Origin: Thiothrix fructosivorans
GTDB taxonomy: Bacteria > Pseudomonadota > Gammaproteobacteria > Thiotrichales > Thiotrichaceae
Length of the DNA stretch: 64,000 nucleotides
Assembly: GCF_017349355.1 (NCBI RefSeq)
Contig: NZ_JAFMPM010000006.1
Location: 1,550,001-1,614,000, forward strand
Direction of reading: 5' to 3'
Shown here: in pieces, positions 9,474-64,000 of the stretch
Position numbering within the stretch: the stretch's first letter is position 1
Layout of the letters: the number at the start of each line of letters is the position of its first letter
Position numbers and translations under genes: made by a program
Notes under the pieces: generated by a model
What the model was told of the DNA's origin: nothing
Seen by the model: only the letters and a program-made list of their open reading frames with translations
Database searches by the model: none

Positions 9474-10550
9474 TCAAATTTCCCGATTCAACACGCGTTT
9501 GAGTGCCGCCGGATCAAAGTCGGCGGTGACGATGGATTCGCCCAGCGATTTCATTAGGATGAGGCGTAATGTGCCATCCATCACTTTCTTATCCACCGAC
9601 ATATAACGGGTGAAGTCTTCGCCCGTCATTTGCGTCGGTGGGTCAACCGGCAAGTTGGCGCGTTGCAAAATGTGGCGCGTGTAAGCCACGTCATCCGCCG
9701 CTAACCAACCCATTTGCTGTGACAATTCCGCCGCCATTACCATGCCTGTTGCGACTGCTTCGCCGTGTAACCAGTTGCCGTAACCCATTGCCGCTTCAAT
9801 CGCGTGCCCGAAGGTATGCCCCAGATTCAGCAAGGCGCGTTGCCCAGACTCACGTTCATCTGCCGCGACGACTTCGGCTTTGTGTTCGCAGGAGCGGAAA
9901 ATCGCATACGTCAACGCTTCGGGGTCACGCGCAAGCAGCCGATCCATATTGGTATCCAGCCATTGCAGAAAAGCTGGATCACGGATCAGACCGTATTTCA
10001 CCACTTCCGCGATACCTGCGCTGAGTTCGCGGTCAGCCAGCGTATTCAGGCTGTCGGTGTCGATCAGTACGCATTGCGGCTGGTGGAATGCGCCGATCAT
10101 GTTCTTGCCAAGTGGGTGGTTTACGCCGGTTTTGCCGCCGACGGAAGAATCGACCATTGCCAATAGCGTTGTTGGAATTTGGATGAAGTTGATACCGCGT
10201 TGATAGCTGGCTGCTGCATACCCCGTCATATCGCCCACCACACCGCCGCCGAGCGCAATCAGCGTGGTTTTGCGATCCGCTTTGCTTTCCAGCAAGTGGG
10301 TGTAAATCTGATTGAGGACATCGAGGTTTTTGTAGCCTTCGCCATCCGGTAAAATGACGGTGGAGTGTTTCAACCCTGTCAGCAAACGTTGCGTGGCTTC
10401 CAGATACAGTGGCGCAACGGTGGTATTGGTGACGACTACCGCGCTTTTGCCTTTGATGTGTGGCGTGACCAGCTCGGACTGTTGCAGCAAACCTTGCCCG
10501 ATGTGAATCGGGTAGCTGCGCTCGCCAAGGTCGAGGTTAAGGGTTTGCAT
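9474..10550 (-). CDS. aroB: 3-dehydroquinate synthase
   Basis: A 358-residue protein, the usual length for AroB. It catalyses conversion of DAHP to 3-dehydroquinate, step 2 of the shikimate pathway, using NAD+ and a divalent metal. The [16 protein letters not shown] segment, the [20 protein letters not shown] segment, and the metal-site [12 protein letters not shown] and WLHGEAVA blocks are all intact. The gene overlaps the end of aroK by 14 nt, giving the classical pil-aroK-aroB order. Confidence 0.97.
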
Positions 10551-11073
10551 GGGTAACTTCCTGTAATTGTTTGAGTTTGTTGTGGATTTCGCGCAGGATG
10601 ACGTTCACTTTCTGCTTGCCTGTGGGAATAATCAAATCAGCCACTTCCATGTAATACGGTTCGCGGGCTTTGAGTAGATCGCGCAAGGTTTGCACGGGAT
10701 TAGCGGTTTGCATGAGCGGGCGGCCTTGGTCGTGCTTAATGCGTTGGAACAGGTGGTCAGCACTGGCGCGTAGATAGATGACGCAACCACTCGCTTTGAT
10801 ACGTTCACGGTTGCTGTCGCGTAAAATACTGCCGCCGCCGGTGGCAAGCAAAATGCCCTGCATGGCGGTGAGTTCGGCAATGACCTGCTCTTCACGCTCA
10901 CGAAAGCCTGCTTCACCTTCGACTTCAAAGATGGTGGGAATAGGCACACCCGTGCGTTCTTCGATCACCTTATCGGAATCGTAGAACGTTAAGTTAAGAC
11001 GGCGAGCGAGTTGTCGACCTATGGTGGATTTTCCCGCGCCCATCAAACCCACCAGAATGATGTTATGTTGCAT
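10537..11073 (-). CDS. aroK: Shikimate kinase
   Basis: A 178-residue P-loop kinase that phosphorylates shikimate with ATP. Walker [10 protein letters not shown] lies at residues 8-16. The shikimate-binding [11 protein letters not shown] region, the GGG motif (ATGGGS) and the lid-like QGRPLMQ segment are present. It lies 53 nt downstream of pilQ and overlaps aroB, probably at the end of a long pilMNOPQ-aroKB transcript, a common arrangement in gammaproteobacteria. Confidence 0.97.
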
Positions 11074-55329: not shown

Positions 55330-57204
55330 CTACAGCGTCACCTGCGTTCCAATTTCCACCACCTGATCCGATGGTAGATTGAAGTAGGTGGCGGCACTTT
55401 CCGACTGGCGCATCATCCAGCCAAACAGCGCACAACGCCAATACGGCAGCACGCCTTCGCAATCGACAATCGCGGTACGCGCCACGAAAAACGTGGTGCT
55501 AGCCGCTGGTAATGCCAGTTGGTAATTGATTGTCCCGCGCAATGCTTTGCTCAAATCCGGGTTTTCGCGGAAACCAAAGCGTACAGTCACGCTGTAAATC
55601 CCCGGTGCAAGCCCCGTCACCATCAAACGATCTTCCTCCTCAACATACGGCACTTCCTCATTATCCACATGCAGGAACACAATTTGCTCGTGCATCACCT
55701 TGTAATGCTTGATGTTATAAAACAAGCGGCTAGGCACAAGGTTGGGGTTAGAAGCCAGATACACCGCCGTCCCAGCCACACGCGGAATCTCGCTGTGCGG
55801 GTCGGCGACAAATTTGCGCATGGTCACATTGATTTTGCGCCGATGTTCCGCAATCAATTCGCTGCCTTTCTTCCACGTTGTCAGCAAGGTGAAAATGACC
55901 AGTCCCAGCAAAATCGGCAACCACCCACCATGCCCGATTTTGCTCAGGTTGGAACTGAAGAACATGATTTCAAACACAATCGCTACCAGTACACTGGCAA
56001 TAATCGCCTTACGCAAGCGTTGATTGGGGCGTGCTAATGCGACCAGCAAAATCAGTACGCTGGTAATAACCATCGTGCCAGATACCGCAATACCGTAAGC
56101 CGCAGCCAAACCACTGGATGAGCCAAATCCCAACACCAGCAGAATAACCCCTAGCAACATCAACCAATTCACGCTGGCAATGTAAATTTGCCCTTGTTCC
56201 GAATCAGAGGTGTGTTGCACCCGAATGCGCGGCAAATAGCCCAAGCGCGTCGCTTGCTGGGTAAGCGAATACGCTCCAGAAATAGTGGCTTGCGAGGCAA
56301 TCACGGTCGCCATTGTTGCCAATATGACTAACGGCACGAGCAAGCTATCTGGTGCGAGAAAATAGAATGGGTTCTGCGCCATTGTGGGGTCACGCATTAC
56401 CAAGGCCCCTTGCCCAAAATAATTCAGCATCAAGGCAGGCCACACCAAGCCATACCAAGCCAGCCGGATGGGTTTTGCACCAAAATGCCCCATGTCGGCA
56501 TACAAGGCTTCACCGCCAGTCAAAGCCAGAAACACAGCGGAGAGTAATACAAACGCGGCAATCGGGTGATGGAGAGTAAAGTCCAGCGCGTACAATGGGT
56601 TCAGGGCTTGTAACACCTCCGGCGTTTGCAGAATGCTGCTGATACCCAACGTTCCCAAACTCACGAACCACACCACCGTAATCGGGCCAAACAAGATGCC
56701 CACTTTCGCCGTGCCAAACCGCTGGATCAGGAACAGGCTGATTAAAATGCCCAAGGTAATCGGGATAATCAGGTGTTCAAATTGCGGGGTTGCCACGCTG
56801 ATCCCTTCTATCGCCGACAATACCGAAATGGCGGGGGTAATAATGGCATCGCCGTAAAACAACGCGGCAGCAAACACCCCGATCAGTGCCACCGCTTTTG
56901 ACCATTGCGGCAGGGTACGGCGCGTATGCCGATGCGCAAGGGCTTGCAAAGCCAACACGCCGCCTTCGCCCTTATTGTCGAAGCGCAAGACCAGCCATAC
57001 GTATTTGAGCGAAATAATCAGGGTAATCGCCCAAAACAGTGCCGACAGCGTAGCCAGCACATTCGCGTGGCTGGGTGCTAACCCATGCGTAAAGGCTTCT
57101 TTGAAGGCATACAGCGGGCTAGTGCCAATGTCGCCGTAAACAATGCCCAAGGCGGCTAGGGTCAATGCCCCCAGCTTTTGTTTGGGAACGTGCGAGTGAG
57201 TCAT
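55330..57204 (-). CDS. kup: Low-affinity potassium transporter Kup
   Basis: A 624-residue protein with about 12 membrane helices and the KUP signature near the start (GIVYGDIGTSPLYAFKEAF). LFYGDAIITPAISVLSA is also typical. It takes up K+ with protons. A soluble C-terminal region follows residue 440. The stop lies 2 nt from that of the convergent ABC gene. The adjacent kdpE-kdpD pair suggests potassium-linked control. Confidence 0.95.
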   Translation of the reverse strand: MTHSHVPKQKLGALTLAALGIVYGDIGTSPLYAFKEAFTHGLAPSHANVLATLSALFWAITLIISLKYVWLVLRFDNKGEGGVLALQALAHRHTRRTLPQWSKAVALIGVFAAALFYGDAIITPAISVLSAIEGISVATPQFEHLIIPITLGILISLFLIQRFGTAKVGILFGPITVVWFVSLGTLGISSILQTPEVLQALNPLYALDFTLHHPIAAFVLLSAVFLALTGGEALYADMGHFGAKPIRLAWYGLVWPALMLNYFGQGALVMRDPTMAQNPFYFLAPDSLLVPLVILATMATVIASQATISGAYSLTQQATRLGYLPRIRVQHTSDSEQGQIYIASVNWLMLLGVILLVLGFGSSSGLAAAYGIAVSGTMVITSVLILLVALARPNQRLRKAIIASVLVAIVFEIMFFSSNLSKIGHGGWLPILLGLVIFTLLTTWKKGSELIAEHRRKINVTMRKFVADPHSEIPRVAGTAVYLASNPNLVPSRLFYNIKHYKVMHEQIVFLHVDNEEVPYVEEEDRLMVTGLAPGIYSVTVRFGFRENPDLSKALRGTINYQLALPAASTTFFVARTAIVDCEGVLPYWRCALFGWMMRQSESAATYFNLPSDQVVEIGTQVTL

Positions 57205-57218
57205 ATCAGGATTCCTTC

Positions 57219-57911
57219 CTACAGTTGGAAACGGTAGCCAATGCCGGTTTCGGTGAGTAAATGGCGGGGTTGGCTGGGGTCATCTTCGAGCTTCTGGCGC
57301 AAATGCCCGACATACACGCGCAGGTAGTGATTGCTCTCCACATACGTGCTGCCCCAAACCTCGCGCAGCAAATGGCGGTGAGTCATGACCCGACCTGCAT
57401 TCAGCAGCAGCAGGCTTAACAGGTGAAACTCAATCGGAGTAATGCGCACGGCTTCCCCGCGACGGCGCACTTGGCGTTGGGACAAATCCACTTCAATATC
57501 ACCGAAATGAATCAGCGGACTGGCGGTTTCCGGGTTGAACTGGCTGCGGCGCAACAGGGCGCGTACCCGTGCCAGCAATTCGCCCGTCGAAAACGGTTTG
57601 CTGAGGTAATCGTCAGCCCCGGCATCCAGTGCCTTGATCTTGTCTTGGTCAGCACTGCGGGCAGACAGCACCAATACCGGCAATTTTGACCAAGTGCGCA
57701 AGGTCTGAATGAGTTGCACGCCATCACCGTCGGGCAGCCCCAAGTCCAGAATGAGCATGTCCAGCCGTTGGGTGCGGATGTCTTGCAAGCCTTGGGTGCA
57801 AGTACCTGCTTCGGTAACTTGATAGGCTTCGCTTTCCAAGGCGGTGCGGACGAAGCGGCGGATGTGTTGTTCGTCTTCCACCACCAGAATATGGTTGATG
57901 GCTGTGGTCAT
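57219..57911 (-). CDS. kdpE: KdpE response regulator
   Basis: A 230-residue OmpR-family regulator starting MTTAINHILVVEDEQH; the longer frame to 57989 is inside kdpD. The receiver has LILDLGLPDGDGVQ and ADDYLSKPFSTGELLARVRALLRR. The DNA-binding domain ends TETGIGYRFQL. Close to KdpE in the RRR.G EAVRITPIEFHLL region. It overlaps the kdpD stop by 4 nt and lies 14 nt before kup, which it may regulate. Confidence 0.9.
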   Translation of the reverse strand: MTTAINHILVVEDEQHIRRFVRTALESEAYQVTEAGTCTQGLQDIRTQRLDMLILDLGLPDGDGVQLIQTLRTWSKLPVLVLSARSADQDKIKALDAGADDYLSKPFSTGELLARVRALLRRSQFNPETASPLIHFGDIEVDLSQRQVRRRGEAVRITPIEFHLLSLLLLNAGRVMTHRHLLREVWGSTYVESNHYLRVYVGHLRQKLEDDPSQPRHLLTETGIGYRFQL

Positions 57912-59059
57912 GGGGTATTGCCTGTGGGGTGGAAGGGTTCGGGTTCGATGATCGGCGGCGTGCCGAGGGGCAGATGAAAGCAGATACATCCGCCGCCCTG
58001 CGCTGGATTGCTGGCAGCAATATCGCCGTCGTGTGCTTCAATAATGGCACGGCAAATGCTTAAACCCAGCCCCACACCGGGGATGGTGGATTCGTGGTTG
58101 CCGCGTTCAAACAGCTCGAACACTTGGTTCAGCTTGTCAGCCGGAAAGCCTTCGCCGGGGTTGCACACGCAAATTTCGACCTGTGTGGGCAGCAGTTTGG
58201 CGGTGATGTGCAGGGTGGAATCGGCAGGCGAATACTTCGCGGCATTTTCCAGCAAATTGCAAAACACCCGTTCCATGAGGATGGCATCGAATTCCAGCAA
58301 GGGTAAATCGGCGGGCAGGCTGACTTTGACGGGGTGATGGCGCAGGGCAACTTTGAGCAGCTTGGTGCTTGCGCCGATGACTTCTTCCAGCGGCTGCCAT
58401 TCCTTGCGGAACTTCATGCCGCCTGCTTGCAGCCGTGCCATTTCCAACAAATTGCTGACCATGCTATTGAGGTGTAAGGCTTGGTCGCGGATGGCGGTAA
58501 TGGTTTCCTGTGTGTCGGGCGGCAAGGGCGGTTTGCTCAGTTTCAGGGATTCTGCCAGCCCGTACAGCGAGGTGAGCGGGGTACGGATGTCGTGTGACAG
58601 GGCGGAGAGAATGGTATTGCGCAAGCGTTCCGAGAGCATTTGCATCCGCGCTTCGTGGGCGACTTTTTCGAGTTCGTACAGGCTCAAGGCTTGCTGTTCA
58701 CGGGTGTTGGCATCGGTGGCTTGCTGGCGTAATCCGGCAGTCAGGTGGGTAATGATGAGGGCAACGACCAGCATGACGGCAAAGGTGACGAGGTATTGGG
58801 CGTGGGCAACCGAGAGTGACCAATGCGGTGGCACAAAAAAGAAATCGAAGGCAATCACGCTGCAAAACGCGGTGAGGATAGCGGGGCGACGACCCAGCTT
58901 GACCGCTACCAGTGCCACGGTCAGCAAAAACAGCATGGCGGTATTGGCTAAATCGAGGTGGTTATGCAGCGGCACTGCCAGCAGGGTGGTGATGCCGACC
59001 GCCAGCAATGCCAATAAATGCCGTTGCCATAAAGGGCGGGCTTCCAATCCATTTTTCAT
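57908..59059 (-). CDS. kdpD: KdpD-like sensor histidine kinase lacking the N-terminal half
   Basis: A 383-residue protein: four membrane helices (DUF4118, about 12-108), a coiled linker, HisKA with H156 in LSHDIRTPLTSLYG, and a HATPase with PGEGFPADKLNQVFELF and GVGLGLSICRAII. Full KdpD has about 890 residues, with an N-terminal KdpD sensor and USP domain; both are absent here. No KdpABC pump is nearby. Signal input must therefore differ. Upstream 156 nt separates it from the toxin-antitoxin genes. Confidence 0.88.
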   Translation of the reverse strand: MKNGLEARPLWQRHLLALLAVGITTLLAVPLHNHLDLANTAMLFLLTVALVAVKLGRRPAILTAFCSVIAFDFFFVPPHWSLSVAHAQYLVTFAVMLVVALIITHLTAGLRQQATDANTREQQALSLYELEKVAHEARMQMLSERLRNTILSALSHDIRTPLTSLYGLAESLKLSKPPLPPDTQETITAIRDQALHLNSMVSNLLEMARLQAGGMKFRKEWQPLEEVIGASTKLLKVALRHHPVKVSLPADLPLLEFDAILMERVFCNLLENAAKYSPADSTLHITAKLLPTQVEICVCNPGEGFPADKLNQVFELFERGNHESTIPGVGLGLSICRAIIEAHDGDIAASNPAQGGGCICFHLPLGTPPIIEPEPFHPTGNTP

Positions 59060-59177
59060 CTGACACCAGATTCACAGTGGGGCTATGGCGCGAAGTCTGG
59101 CAGTTTGGAAATAAAAATGGTGTAGAAATTTGTCGCCAAGGTTTGCCCCTTAACAATACTAGTGGTGGGCGTGGCGA

Positions 59178-59208
59178 TTCCGTGAACCCATGCTAATATA
59201 GCTATAAT
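59178..59208 (+). promoter_or_regulatory. Possible promoter of the RHH-MazF operon
   Basis: A perfect TATAAT at 59203-59208 has a weak -35 (TTCCGT, 19-bp spacing). It lies only 8 nt before the first ATG of the antitoxin. Transcription would start near 59215, so the message would be almost leaderless from 59216 or start translation at the internal ATG 59228. Confidence 0.4.
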
Positions 59209-59215
59209 CATCCAC

Positions 59216-59461
59216 ATGGAAACCACTATGCGAACCTTGCAAATGACCTTTGATGACGATCTGGTGGCTGAACTCGATCAGGTTGTTCAGGAAAACCGTA
59301 CCAACCGTTCCGCTTTCACCCGCGAAGCCTTGCGCATGGCAATTGCACTCTATCACCAACGCAAATTGGTGGAAAAACACCGCGCTGGTTACTTGCGCCA
59401 CCCTGTTGCCCCCGACGAATTTTCAGTGTGGGAAGAGGAACAAGCATGGGGTGATGAATGA
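59216..59461 (+). CDS. Ribbon-helix-helix antitoxin
   Basis: An 81-residue protein. MRTLQMTFDDDLVAELDQVV and NRSAFTREALRMAIALY form the ribbon-helix-helix domain; the acidic tail (WEEEQAWGDE) should bind and block the toxin. ATG 59228 is a possible start that removes METT. The stop overlaps the toxin start by 4 nt. It likely represses its own promoter. Confidence 0.88.
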   Translation: METTMRTLQMTFDDDLVAELDQVVQENRTNRSAFTREALRMAIALYHQRKLVEKHRAGYLRHPVAPDEFSVWEEEQAWGDE

Positions 59462-59787
59462 AGCGTGGCGAAATTCGTTGGTACACGTTCAAAGAGCCGG
59501 ATAAACGCCGTCCGGTAATGATTTTGCTGCGCTCTGACATTATCCCGTATTTGGGTGAAGTGACTATCGCACCGATTACTACCACCATCCGCGACATCCC
59601 CAGCGAAGTGGCATTGAGCGTGCAGGATGGTATGCCGCGTGAATGTGCCATCAATTTCGACCATATCCAGACGGTGCAAAAAGGCAAGTTGGGGGCTTTG
59701 ATTACCACGCTTTCCGCGCACAAACTGGCGGAAGTGGATCAGGCTGTCAGCTTTGCCTTGAGTTTGAATGGTTTTGACGGGTTTTGA
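59458..59787 (+). CDS. MazF/PemK-family toxin ribonuclease
   Basis: A 109-residue protein with the MazF fold: KRGEIRWYTF, KRRPVMILLRSDIIPYL, VTIAPITTTIRDIPSEV and NFDHIQTVQKGKLG. These toxins cleave mRNA at short sites. The key Arg (RRPV) and the Thr/Ser of ITTTIR are present. It converges with the Fic-like gene 4 nt away. Confidence 0.9.
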   Translation: MKRGEIRWYTFKEPDKRRPVMILLRSDIIPYLGEVTIAPITTTIRDIPSEVALSVQDGMPRECAINFDHIQTVQKGKLGALITTLSAHKLAEVDQAVSFALSLNGFDGF

Positions 59788-59791
59788 TTAA

Positions 59792-60490
59792 TCATGCCTC
59801 GCGCATAATCCGCAACACCCGCTCATCCATGCACGAACGCATAAACGCATTCATCGCGCTTTCATCACCCGAATCATAAAACGCCAGCATCAAGGTGTTG
59901 AATTCCAGTTGGCGTTTGGCGGGTAGGTTGATTGCGGGATAGCCGTGCTGGAGCAAATGCCCGTTCATCATGAAACGCCCCATGCGCTTGTTCACGTCGT
60001 AGAAAAACTGGCAACGCGCCATCGTCAGGAAAATGTGGATGGCTTGGTCGTAAATGTCGTCGATGTAGGCAAGGTCGGTAATCAATGCCTCGAAACGGGC
60101 GGGCAATTCGGCGACGGGTGGGGGCATGTAATCTGTTCCCGCGATGAATACGCCACCGGAGCGGAAGCGTCCCCATTCTAATGCCTCTTCTTTGCCCGCA
60201 GCGGCGTGGAGTGCGCAGGCTTTTTCGGCGGAAATAGTGAATTCGCCGCGTTCGAGCCAGCTAAACAACAGCCGCCATGCGTTGCCTTGATTTACCGTAA
60301 TTTGCTGGTCGGAAAGTTTGTGTCCGCCTACGGTGATGCCGTCCAGTAGGGTCTGGACTTCTGGCAGGGTCATGTTGATGCCTTCCAGATTGACCGCATC
60401 GCAGACGAATTCGCTGAGTTGGCGTTTTGCCAGCATTAGCGCGGTGGCGGGGTTGGGGGGGATTTGCCAGTGGAGGTCGTTCATAATCAT
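59792..60490 (-). CDS. Fic-fold protein with degenerate catalytic motif
   Basis: A 232-residue protein with the Fic domain. The HxFxDGNxRxxR motif reads QFFYDVNKRMGR (161-172), so the catalytic His is Gln161 and Gly is Val166. Asp165, Asn167, Lys168, Arg169 and Arg172 are kept. An N-terminal helix contains NLEG (34-37), like the inhibitory helix motif of class II Fic. AMP transfer is therefore doubtful; binding or a different reaction is possible. The ATG overlaps the stop of the NACHT gene (ATGA), so translation is coupled. Confidence 0.85.
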   Translation of the reverse strand: MIMNDLHWQIPPNPATALMLAKRQLSEFVCDAVNLEGINMTLPEVQTLLDGITVGGHKLSDQQITVNQGNAWRLLFSWLERGEFTISAEKACALHAAAGKEEALEWGRFRSGGVFIAGTDYMPPPVAELPARFEALITDLAYIDDIYDQAIHIFLTMARCQFFYDVNKRMGRFMMNGHLLQHGYPAINLPAKRQLEFNTLMLAFYDSGDESAMNAFMRSCMDERVLRIMREA

Positions 60491-63156
60491 GAAATCCCTG
60501 CTTCTTTGCTAAGTTTTTCATATGTAACCATCATTTTTTTTCCAATATATTTTCTTATTTCTTCATCAGAAATTTGTAGCTCCCTGCAAATCAAAAACCA
60601 AAGACTTGACGTTATCAGAAACTTCGAGATGAAGATTGAGGTGATTCCCATTCCCACGCCAAGCCCAACTAAAAATAACAATGATGGCGTTAATAACAAA
60701 AATTTCTCCAAGCTCACATTTCCCACTACCGATAACATCCCCCACATCCCCGACAACGTCCCCAGCGACAAAAAAAACGCGGATAATGGCAACGACGATA
60801 AGCGCAGGCGTGGGAGCGGCGCTAAAAGACTAAAAATATAGATATTAATGAATGTTGCGACTGATTTTGCAAATGGAAAGTACTTGAATTGCGGTTCGTC
60901 AAATAATACGCGCCATGTTTTTTCTTGGATGGGTATCTCAGAGTGGTTTTTTGATAAATCGGCTTTTAACAGCTCTGCAAAGAATGTTAAGACTTCTTTT
61001 GTTCTTAATGCATCATTAATATGCATATTCATTGTGTTTTTTATAGAAGTGGCAGATGTTTTATTGAAGGAGAATAATTGGCTAATGACTTTGGCTTGCA
61101 GAAGTTCCATGTAGGATTTGTGAGCAAATTTGAACATGCCATCTTTGCTCAAGTCTGTTACCAATAAACCACAGGAACGTACATCAGTATTGATCTTTTC
61201 GATAATTTCAGTTCGGCGAGTATTCCACTCAAATCGTGCATTACTACGTAGAGGACATGCATCCTCACCTTTTAATGAACTGACGGAACGCGAAACATCT
61301 TCTGGAACTGCATCAATCAGTCTGTTGACCGTTTTGGTTAATTCATCTTTGCCTATTTGATTGGGTAAGTTTTTGACAGCCATGTATGCAGCTATCCCCA
61401 TCATAAAATAATGACGTTCCGCTGTATTTAATATCATGAATGGGCGTTCATCATTTTTATCTTGTTGGCGTTTTAATGTTTGTTGAATGAATAGATCAAT
61501 AACAGTTGCTGAATTGATATGTTCATGTTTATGAAGCTCTTCGCGTTTCCAAAGTAATGCCACCAAATGCAGTAACGATGGGCGTGAAGCAACCTCTAAA
61601 AATTTCTTATCTTCTTTGGCGAGTTGCACAATTTCATGGCGAACTTGCTCATCTGCTGAACGTAAGCTATTTTCAATCTGTTCAACATTAAATGGCTGAA
61701 GATACAGTGTATGTGTTTGGTCTGTTTCTCCTAGTGCGCGAGTTAACTCCTTGCTATCCAGAAAGAAGTTAGGTCGTCCGGTAATGATTAGTTTTGAGCG
61801 CTGATAGTTTAATTTCCACAAACTATGAAAATGACTAATTCGTGCTTCAGTATCACCACTCAAATCAATTTCATCAAAGCCTTCAAAAATCAGCAGCAAT
61901 CTCCCCGCCATGTGTAAATGCAATAGTGCCTTAACATTAATCCCATAACGATAAGCCCATGTTGCCAATAACTCTTCTGGTGGAAGGCTTCTTAATGTTT
62001 TACCTCGAAGCTCAATCAGTATTGGAATACTAGTGTGAGTATCGAAACTGTACTGCTTGATCAAATGGTAACTAAGTAACAAGGAAACAGTACTTTTACC
62101 CTGTCCATATTCACCTAGCACTGCTAGTTGCTTGCTAGAATTATCTCGTAGCCATTGTTGAATATACACCTCTAATGATTCAGGTTGAGGTTCTGCTTCT
62201 TTTGCCAACCGATACAAAGAGGGAGTGTAAGTGTCCTGCAAAGTTAAATGACTTTCTGGAAGTTTTGCACGTTCAACCCGATATTGAATGTCGGCAAAAT
62301 AATCGGAAAAGTCCACTAACTCCAATAACAGTGCGGCTTCATTGGTGTAAGTGATGCTGTAGTCAGGATGATGCTCTGCTGGATTGGGTTCACCCTCTTT
62401 ATGGGTGATGATGAGTTCAATCGCTTTTTTCTCTTGATGATCAGCAACTTTGCGAGCGTAATCGAGCCACGCAGATAACGCAGCAGCACTAGGGACATAC
62501 TGTGGGCAAGCGAGTAACACTAATGCCCCTGTATGCTTTTCCTCACCTATCCAACATTTGTGCGCAGGGTCGAATTCACCCCCAAACAAGTAGCTACGAT
62601 TACGCAAGCACCACAATTGTTTGGCGCGTTCGTGCCATGTCAGTGTCTCCGGTCTATCCAACAGCGTATTGTACTGATCAGCTTCAGCGGAATAGGGTTT
62701 ACGTTTCTCCTTCGCATCCGGTGTTCTTTCCAAGAACAGACGAATATCACGCAAAATACTGGCTGGGTCGCAGTTTTGCTCTTGTTCATGCTGGGCAAGG
62801 CTTTTTTGCCCATTCCAGTTTTTGAATACGCTTACGTATGCGACGGCTAACACCAGAATGACGAAGAAAAATAGCACTGCTTCCAATGGACTGAGCGGCG
62901 GTGTTAGCGGCTGAAGATTGAAGCCAAAAGGCTTAAGTAAGATCATCAGCACACTGCCGATGATGGAGTTCTCTAGGAGGAAGGCACTCAGATACAACCC
63001 CACAAAACCAAAGATCCCTATAAAACCAAAAAAGGCAAAGCGTTCGCGGGTGTGACGATCTTTCTTCCACCATACATAGAAAGCCCACAGTGCCATGCCA
63101 CTCACCGCGATAAGTAGCGCGAAAAGAAGCCAGTCAAACGCAATACTATTGGTCAT
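60487..63156 (-). CDS. Membrane-anchored NACHT-type NTPase
   Basis: An 889-residue protein. Three N-terminal helices (about 8-28, 42-62, 91-111) lead to a soluble middle domain of unclear family (130-320) with LTLQDTYTP. The NTPase has P-loop GEYGQGKS (348-355), Walker B LLIFEGFDEID (421-431) and the KLIITGRPNFF sensor strand (about 455). A helical arm and further membrane helices near residues 750-850 follow. This is the STAND/NACHT plan used in bacterial immune and signalling proteins; there is no obvious C-terminal sensor repeat. Base composition at the 3' end is A+T rich relative to neighbours, suggesting transfer. Coupled to the Fic-like gene. Confidence 0.8.
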   Translation of the reverse strand: MTNSIAFDWLLFALLIAVSGMALWAFYVWWKKDRHTRERFAFFGFIGIFGFVGLYLSAFLLENSIIGSVLMILLKPFGFNLQPLTPPLSPLEAVLFFFVILVLAVAYVSVFKNWNGQKSLAQHEQEQNCDPASILRDIRLFLERTPDAKEKRKPYSAEADQYNTLLDRPETLTWHERAKQLWCLRNRSYLFGGEFDPAHKCWIGEEKHTGALVLLACPQYVPSAAALSAWLDYARKVADHQEKKAIELIITHKEGEPNPAEHHPDYSITYTNEAALLLELVDFSDYFADIQYRVERAKLPESHLTLQDTYTPSLYRLAKEAEPQPESLEVYIQQWLRDNSSKQLAVLGEYGQGKSTVSLLLSYHLIKQYSFDTHTSIPILIELRGKTLRSLPPEELLATWAYRYGINVKALLHLHMAGRLLLIFEGFDEIDLSGDTEARISHFHSLWKLNYQRSKLIITGRPNFFLDSKELTRALGETDQTHTLYLQPFNVEQIENSLRSADEQVRHEIVQLAKEDKKFLEVASRPSLLHLVALLWKREELHKHEHINSATVIDLFIQQTLKRQQDKNDERPFMILNTAERHYFMMGIAAYMAVKNLPNQIGKDELTKTVNRLIDAVPEDVSRSVSSLKGEDACPLRSNARFEWNTRRTEIIEKINTDVRSCGLLVTDLSKDGMFKFAHKSYMELLQAKVISQLFSFNKTSATSIKNTMNMHINDALRTKEVLTFFAELLKADLSKNHSEIPIQEKTWRVLFDEPQFKYFPFAKSVATFINIYIFSLLAPLPRLRLSSLPLSAFFLSLGTLSGMWGMLSVVGNVSLEKFLLLTPSLLFLVGLGVGMGITSIFISKFLITSSLWFLICRELQISDEEIRKYIGKKMMVTYEKLSKEAGIS

Positions 63157-63277
63157 AAGAAATGATTTTAGTTAGACAAGAATTTGCGCAGTATAACATA
63201 TTGATGACCTTCACCACTGTTCGCTTATGCTATGTTTGGTAGCAAGCACACAAGAGCTTTATCGCAGGGGTAAACGC

Positions 63278-63655
63278 ATGAACCAAAACATCCTGACCAT
63301 CAAAGTAGGCACAAGCATCCAGTCCTCACTGGCACTCGCCCAACAAATGCTAGAACGCCTCGAAGTCGGCGAAGAACCCGCTCCTTACTTCGGTGTAGGC
63401 TTCAAAAACGTCAGCCAGATGCTCAGTGTTTTCACCCCCAAACGTTGGGACTTGCTGGCAGTGTTACGCGAACACGGCGTAATGAGCATTGCCGAACTCG
63501 CCCGCACCTTGCAACGCGACTACAAAAACGTCCATAACGACGTGGAACGCCTGATGGAATGGCTTGCCATCGAACGCGATGCTAACGGCAAAATTTTCAC
63601 GCCCTACTCAGAAATCGTAGTTGACGTGCATCTGCCCCAGCAAAAAGCGGCTTGA
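63278..63655 (+). CDS. HVO_A0114-family winged HTH regulator, probable antitoxin
   Basis: A 125-residue protein from ATG 63278, with AGGGG 8 nt upstream; the longer 63227 start lacks support. SVFTPKRWDLLAVL and MSIAELARTLQRDYKNVHNDVERL form a winged HTH. HVO_A0114-type proteins are often paired with TumE-type toxins. The toxin-like gene begins 65 nt downstream. Divergent from the NACHT gene across 121 nt. Confidence 0.82.
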   Translation: MNQNILTIKVGTSIQSSLALAQQMLERLEVGEEPAPYFGVGFKNVSQMLSVFTPKRWDLLAVLREHGVMSIAELARTLQRDYKNVHNDVERLMEWLAIERDANGKIFTPYSEIVVDVHLPQQKAA

Positions 63656-63720
63656 GGAAATAACGCTAACAACACCAAACAGCATTGATTTCACCCCTCA
63701 TCCGTTGTCATAATGTCAAC

Positions 63721-64000
63721 ATGAAAGCAACACTCATCCTGAAAGACAGAATCGTGTACGAAGGCGGATACATACAAGAAATGGTGATCTGGGAAGTGCC
63801 GCAACCCGTGGCAGGCAGTCAGCATCTCTACAAATATCGCCTATTCTTCGGACTACCAAATGATCGGATTGTCGGTTATGACAACGAACGCCCCAAAGGT
63901 GATCACCGACACTATGGCGAGCGCGAAGAGGCTTACCCTTTCGTTACCATCCAGCAACTGGTTGGAGATTTTTTAGCTGATGTAGAAGAACAACGGAGGC
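63721..64000 (+). CDS. TumE/DUF6516-family toxin, right end cut
   Basis: A 93-codon partial ORF starting MKATLILKDRIVY and continuing with EMVIWEVPQPVAGS, HLYKYRLFFG and YDNERPKGDHRHYGEREEAY. The conserved NERPKGDHRH segment is characteristic of the TumE/DUF6516 toxin family. The end lies outside the window, but the family is close to this length. Presumed partner of the HTH gene upstream. The mode of action is not settled in this sequence. Confidence 0.8.
   Translation, partial: MKATLILKDRIVYEGGYIQEMVIWEVPQPVAGSQHLYKYRLFFGLPNDRIVGYDNERPKGDHRHYGEREEAYPFVTIQQLVGDFLADVEEQRR

Follow-up and report, generated by a model that had tools for sequence, protein, structure and literature searches.

A Gln-for-His Fic-like gene behind exchanged defence-type genes, including a NACHT NTPase gene, in Thiothrix

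Toward the end of the window, by which we mean the whole 64,000-nucleotide stretch of Thiothrix fructosivorans DNA analysed here, a gene for an 889-aa NACHT/STAND NTPase (60487..63156, minus strand; identified by ORF, Pfam and motifs) is followed on the same strand by a gene for a 232-aa Fic-like protein (59792..60490, minus strand; identified by ORF, Pfam and an alignment of copies), and the end of the first ORF and the start of the second have an ATGA in common. Do these genes constitute a coupled two-gene defence system, as a first-pass annotation proposed? The components of that proposal are in place: a NACHT-type NTPase and a degenerate Fic with Gln for the catalytic His lie in one tight operon, located, as had also been noted, between two toxin-antitoxin loci recognised by Pfam, a convergent RHH_1 antitoxin with a PemK/MazF-type toxin (59216..59787, plus strand) and a divergent HVO_A0114-type regulator with a TumE-type toxin (63227..64000, plus strand, running past the window end). 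The coupling itself did not survive comparison with other genomes, because nine of the ten Fic copies in the genus sit behind other genes. The Fic-like gene, which is conserved and encodes a probably non-AMPylating protein, is better described as a tail gene, within one genus, of defence-type operons whose leading genes are exchanged. The reading that we prefer, at a probability of about 0.5, is of a defence slot with changing occupants, in which Fic is the resident accessory tail gene.

Base composition sets the two genes apart. GC content is 0.37-0.42 across about 60500-62500, whereas intervals from 57000 to 60500 have 0.50-0.58; the A+T richness previously ascribed to the 3' end of the NACHT gene is present and spans most of that gene. 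At third codon positions, GC is low in NACHT (0.40) and is 0.68 both in Fic and in a neighbouring sensor kinase gene, so that Fic resembles its own genome in base composition and NACHT does not. This contrast probably reflects different histories of NACHT and Fic, and the NACHT gene is probably an A+T-rich slot occupant that arrived recently. The ATGA overlap is likewise real at the level of the ORFs, but the conserved Fic start is probably the second ATG, at 60484: homology among Fic copies begins there, 2 nt beyond the NACHT stop, and the start within the ATGA may therefore not be in use.

The NACHT core (residues 344-499; 61660..62127, minus strand) was placed by the structure model and by a Pfam NACHT match with an E-value of 9.5e-5 and 22.7 bits, under the gathering cut-off of 26.7. 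It contains a Walker A motif, GEYGQGKS (residues 348-355; 62092..62115, minus strand), and a Walker-B-like motif, LLIFEGFDE (residues 421-429; 61870..61896, minus strand), in which Glu replaces the usual first Asp. A Walker B motif with trailing acidic residues is the form found in NACHT/STAND proteins, and both Walker A and a Walker B of this form are present here and in a fuller relative, L025. Hydrophobic segments at both ends, reported earlier, are evident as five partly overlapping hydropathy peaks within residues 1-111 of an N-terminal hydrophobic region (residues 1-113, with peaks at 1-30, 43-74 and 93-111; 62818..63156, minus strand) and as two overlapping peaks in a C-terminal segment (residues 814-843; 60628..60717, minus strand). 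The full structure model is poor (mean pLDDT 46.9) and was used for residues 163-280 and, cautiously, for the core. It predicts a PD-(D/E)XK-fold domain N-terminal to the NACHT core (residues 163-280; 62317..62670, minus strand), the catalytic motif of which is doubtful: by eye, strand 212-216 has no (D/E)xK motif, with LACPQ, LVCQN and LACFS following in three relatives, and an E-E-K triplet one strand earlier (residues 205-207) is conserved in L025 and replaced by K-H-K in a second fuller relative, G094. A Foldseek search returned no match at E<=0.001, which we do not accept as a sign of a new fold. The first impression that the locus resembles no familiar defence type agrees with the finding that none of the PADLOC models matched the NACHT protein at E<=1.

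Among characterised proteins, the clade-6 bNACHT25, described as carrying an N-terminal PD-(D/E)XK effector (PMC12169576), offers a likeness at the level of that description, in that one protein carries a nuclease fold ahead of a NACHT core; the window protein differs in its hydrophobic segments at both ends and its doubtful nuclease motif. From these features, the NACHT protein is probably an NLR-like defence protein anchored in the membrane. It would detect a phage component and assemble through its NTPase core, and its terminal helices would then damage the membrane, leading to abortive infection; that the PD-(D/E)XK-like domain acts as a nuclease is a less probable alternative.

The Fic-like protein matches Pfam Fic (PF02661; E 5.1e-8, 34.1 bits against a curated cut-off of 24) and FICD (E 2e-7). 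Where FICD has HPFIDGNGR, it has the degenerate motif QFFYDVNKR (59984..60010, minus strand), with Gln at the position of the His that marks AMPylases and kinases in HxFx[DE]GN[GK]R. Among 29 aligned homologues, this position is Gln in 28 and Glu in one, and 26, the window protein included, fit Qx[FY]x[DE][GV]NKR. Within 28 rows of the alignment, N167, K168 and R169 are invariant and the inhibitory-motif residues E36 and G37 are conserved in at least 90%, while the Ser/Thr of the inhibitory motif is Ala in the window protein. The pseudo-Fic thus retains Glu-Gly in the inhibitory motif and Asn-Lys-Arg in the Fic motif. Median dN/dS is 0.067 (36 pairs among nine intact genus copies), which indicates strong purifying selection and rules out a decaying gene. 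One copy, in G005, contains a single TAG, and G060 has a C-terminal piece only. The genus also contains another Gln type: among ten more distant Fic loci, six have Gln and four a canonical His motif. Nearest neighbours shift along the Fic gene; the difference counts are small, and no mosaic is claimed.

By its motif and its single domain, the protein fits Fic/Doc clade D2, a bacterial group with Gln for His described as having no known function (Khater and Mohanty, 2015; PMC4454073). The tie to defence-type operons, found here in one genus, has no counterpart in the available text of that study, which treats D2 without genomic context. Could the protein be an enzyme that is active through some unfamiliar chemistry and serves as a common effector or toxin, freed when the upstream system fires? 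The same authors argue that D2 need not be catalytically dead (PMC4454073), and the invariant Asn-Lys-Arg and strong purifying selection fit such a role, but they also hold the His to be catalytically essential, and measured D2 activity is not reported in the available text (PMC4454073); we regard this possibility as very improbable. Sofic shares with the protein the Fic fold and the link of a single Fic gene to phage defence, and its PADLOC HMM gives a weak match (E 1e-5); yet Sofic is described as an AMPylating Fic with its own small antitoxin, AS1 (PMC12249575), whereas the 232-aa window protein lacks the catalytic His on which that definition depends. The best PADLOC match, E 1.4e-7 over residues 26-220, is to PDC-S04, a low-scoring hit to a model that is a candidate only and is judged Fic-type from this match.

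In Campylobacter fetus, Fic2 is neutralised through binding by Fic1 (PMC5651007), a precedent for biological activity of a degenerate Fic and for neutralisation by Fic-Fic contact. It raises the alternative that the window protein is an antitoxin that, independently of NACHT, neutralises active Fic/Doc toxins of the cell itself, of plasmids or of phages via mixed complexes. The nearly invariant Glu-Gly of the inhibitory motif (28 rows) is in keeping with this, as is a Doc-like ORF seen by eye about 200 nt upstream of Fic in L066, a locus outside the genus. Against it, by eye no second Fic lies among the ORFs adjoining the genus copies, the inhibitory-motif Ser/Thr is Ala, and Fic1 is described as keeping active-site residues that the window protein has lost (PMC5651007). 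In that system, the degenerate Fic2 is the toxin and keeps its histidine, and the partners are Fic genes rather than NTPases (PMC5651007). An antitoxin role of this kind appears improbable.

What precedes Fic in related genomes bears directly on the proposed pairing. At an identity of at least 88%, ten Fic copies occur in nine of 16 genus genomes, that of the window (G000) included. In G000, Fic follows NACHT; in G014, a type III Mod-Res restriction-modification system; in G002, G013 and G015, Roc-COR GTPases; in G005, an LRR-Roc-COR gene in a decaying locus; in G012, the 3' scar of a Roc-COR gene; and in G006, a type III restriction-modification scar with an HNH ORF before the first copy and a membrane protein without family before the second (G006b). 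In G010, the nearest named ORF, which we take to be YqaA-like, ends 68 nt away. In a further genome, G011, a kinase locus has an ORF, presumably xfp-like, before the kinase, and neither a long Fic match nor a clean insertion point was found there. An immune-type gene or its remnant therefore stands before Fic in eight of ten copies, the exceptions being G010 (neighbours judged by eye) and G006b, where a recognised defence gene is absent. Roc-COR proteins are counted as immune-type because AP-GTPases are described as having a predicted immune role (PMC8195603).

The junctions with these upstream genes are close. For all ten copies, the end of an upstream ORF of at least 60 codons falls at -20..+8 nt relative to the start of the Fic ORF (in G010 this is possibly a chance ORF). 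The same holds for 62 of the 196 ORFs of at least 150 codons in these loci, taken at their starts, and for 1882 of 20000 positions drawn from them at random. With the interval narrowed to -16..+4 and measured from the Fic start as aligned, the figures were 9/10 for Fic, 59/208 for ORFs and 1455/20000 for random positions. In both counts, the comparison ORFs are mechanical calls on both strands, some of which are not genes, and the ten Fic copies share ancestry and are not independent trials.

Comparison of flanking DNA linked five of these genomes to a single chromosomal region, the right flank being common to G000, G014, G012 and G013 and the left flank to G012, G013 and G015. Within this region, the occupant before Fic is NACHT (G000), type III restriction-modification (G014), a Roc-COR scar (G012) or Roc-COR (G013, G015). 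Other Fic copies lie at other genomic places, with flanks common to G010 and G006b. In 38 of 45 copy pairs, DNA homology is limited to the Fic ORF, with edges no more than 25 nt before its start and about 27 nt past its stop; of the seven exceptions, four extend upstream into a common Roc-COR or restriction-modification stretch and three slightly further downstream. Because the same Fic stands behind quite different defence-type genes, it is more readily seen as a shared accessory than as half of a dedicated pair.

Relatives of the NACHT protein lead to the same view of the pairing. Searching for the gene pair in other genomes, the check set in advance, found full-length NACHT in one of 16 genus genomes, its own, against nine with Fic. 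Neither of the closer, fuller relatives has this Fic: tblastn at E<=1e-10 gave no match in the 18 kb of L025, and the 16 of 369 class genomes that match Fic at E<=1e-25 do not include G094. A dedicated NACHT-Fic defence system, for which the same-strand ATGA overlap speaks, must also contend with the difference in GC3 and with identical 4-nt overlaps between Fic and Roc-COR or non-defence genes, and is hardly credible. With regard to the source of NACHT, a plasmid origin was rejected, as the eight matching plasmid records cover 24-43% of the query at 25-28% identity; a pattern scan of viral_contigs found no NACHT relatives.

The history of Fic was assessed against that of gyrB. Fic dS follows gyrB dS (Spearman 0.77 and median ratio 0.47 over 44 pairs), although many gyrB values exceed 1 and are close to saturation. 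Tracking at about half the gyrB value is compatible with a gene that is resident for the most part and has undergone some transfer, and low ratios for G002 paired with five shared-region genomes (0.24-0.32) indicate that some Fic transfer is possible. Given this correlation, recent spread of Fic as a mobile gene is disfavoured as a complete account.

Outside the genus, the association with defence genes fades. Tight junctions (-20..+8 nt, counted from ORF starts) were found at three of 22 Fic loci, a lower share than the 34 of 122 long-ORF starts there; these loci include three with less than 310 nt of upstream DNA (L063, L068, L074) and two fragments (L064, L075). The three junctions involve a WD40-like C-terminus (L062) and 4-nt overlaps in L071 and L073, with genes that we take to be rlmB-like and regulator-like, respectively, and neither defence-looking. 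Many copies adjoin ordinary genes, presumably including rpsA and rlmB, and on Piscirickettsia plasmids a serine recombinase comes next after Fic. Conversely, 15 of 18 matches to the Roc-COR family are without Fic in their 1.5 kb flanks, some of these loci ending at contig ends; with Fic near only three of 18, an obligate Roc-COR partnership is rejected. Among 63 genomes, a type III Res relative at E<=1e-60 was confined to G014. The fading outside the genus suggests that the link of Fic to defence is a trait of one genus, which could have arisen from local chance or shared ancestry.

Such findings lend some weight to a passive alternative, in which Fic is an unrelated resident of a rearranging, toxin-antitoxin-rich hotspot, perhaps a recombination anchor, where arriving genes survive if Fic stays expressed, with no link at the protein level. 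Roc-COR and NACHT relatives that exist without Fic, Fic copies outside the genus that lack defence genes or overlap non-defence genes, and the correlation of Fic with gyrB divergence all accord with it. The recurrence of immune-type partners or remnants in eight of ten genus copies and the tight junctions run counter to it, and the Fic copies at other genomic places do not fit one anchored site. We consider it a possible but doubtful explanation. Regulation or buffering of the partners by Fic is slightly ahead of passive neighbourhood, because purifying selection is combined with recurrent immune-type partners.

The preferred reading, an exchangeable slot with a resident tail gene, draws together five observations: the junctions are tight and co-directional, partners differ within a single region, DNA homology stops sharply at the limits of the Fic ORF, Fic is conserved, and the two genes contrast in base composition. 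Under it, a conserved Gln-Fic, usually placed directly behind an immune-type gene in the genus, would probably be translated from the mRNA of that gene, and the defence-type genes ahead of it would have been replaced over time, NACHT being the present occupant. As the most tentative step, the pseudo-Fic may work by binding, with no AMPylation, as a regulator or antidote accepted or exploited by several defence proteins. A more specific version, in which the silent Fic is a portable 3' subunit common to NACHT, Roc-COR GTPase and type III restriction-modification systems, read from the partner's mRNA and setting or limiting the activity of the current occupant, seems unlikely.

Clade D2 itself was already known (PMC4454073), and, as far as the available texts go, the new element is a Gln-Fic behind swapped defence genes; no such arrangement was found in searches of the open-licence PMC literature. 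The locus also cautions that an ATGA overlap by itself does not prove a two-gene system. Should it act on its upstream partner, the pseudo-Fic would serve as one general regulator for immune mechanisms that are otherwise unrelated, and clade D2 would gain a role open to testing. Failing that, the locus would still illustrate cleanly how defence genes are replaced ahead of a kept tail gene.

The replacement of His by Gln that marks the Fic-like gene under study recurs elsewhere in the genus. A second, larger Fic protein of T. fructosivorans (locus L002, G000:C6:440746-441330, in an open frame of 461 aa) likewise carries Gln for His (LQAFIDVNKRTSR). Among ten more distantly related Fic loci examined within the genus, six show this substitution.

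At three loci (L059, L060 and L068), which come from two Piscirickettsia plasmids and one further genome, a serine recombinase gene lies 4-5 nt 3' of a Fic gene with about 64% identity. On a viral contig (L041), the Fic is 56% identical, and a reverse transcriptase gene (1109-2503; RVT_1, E 1.2e-21) is located about 2.5 kb upstream of it.

Ala-Val dipeptide repeat runs were observed within hydrophobic stretches of the NACHT relative from G094 (L080, 297-1628), and also in those of the membrane protein preceding the second Fic of the congeneric genome G006 (L035, about 9505-10836), a region partly masked as N.

In the window, a transporter gene followed by response regulator and kinase genes occupies 55330-59059; we take these to encode a Kup-type potassium transporter and a KdpE/KdpD-like pair, the kinase without the long N-terminal part of KdpD. 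These genes are absent from the equivalent place in the congeneric genome G013, and a search of G013 for a close match to the kinase found none. At the end of the Roc-COR-Fic unit opposite Fic, a divergent gene pair recurs upstream of the Roc-COR genes or their scar (L028-L031 and L033), with nucleotide homology extending over about 690-860 nt; from its sequence, we presume this pair to be an antitoxin and a PIN-like toxin.
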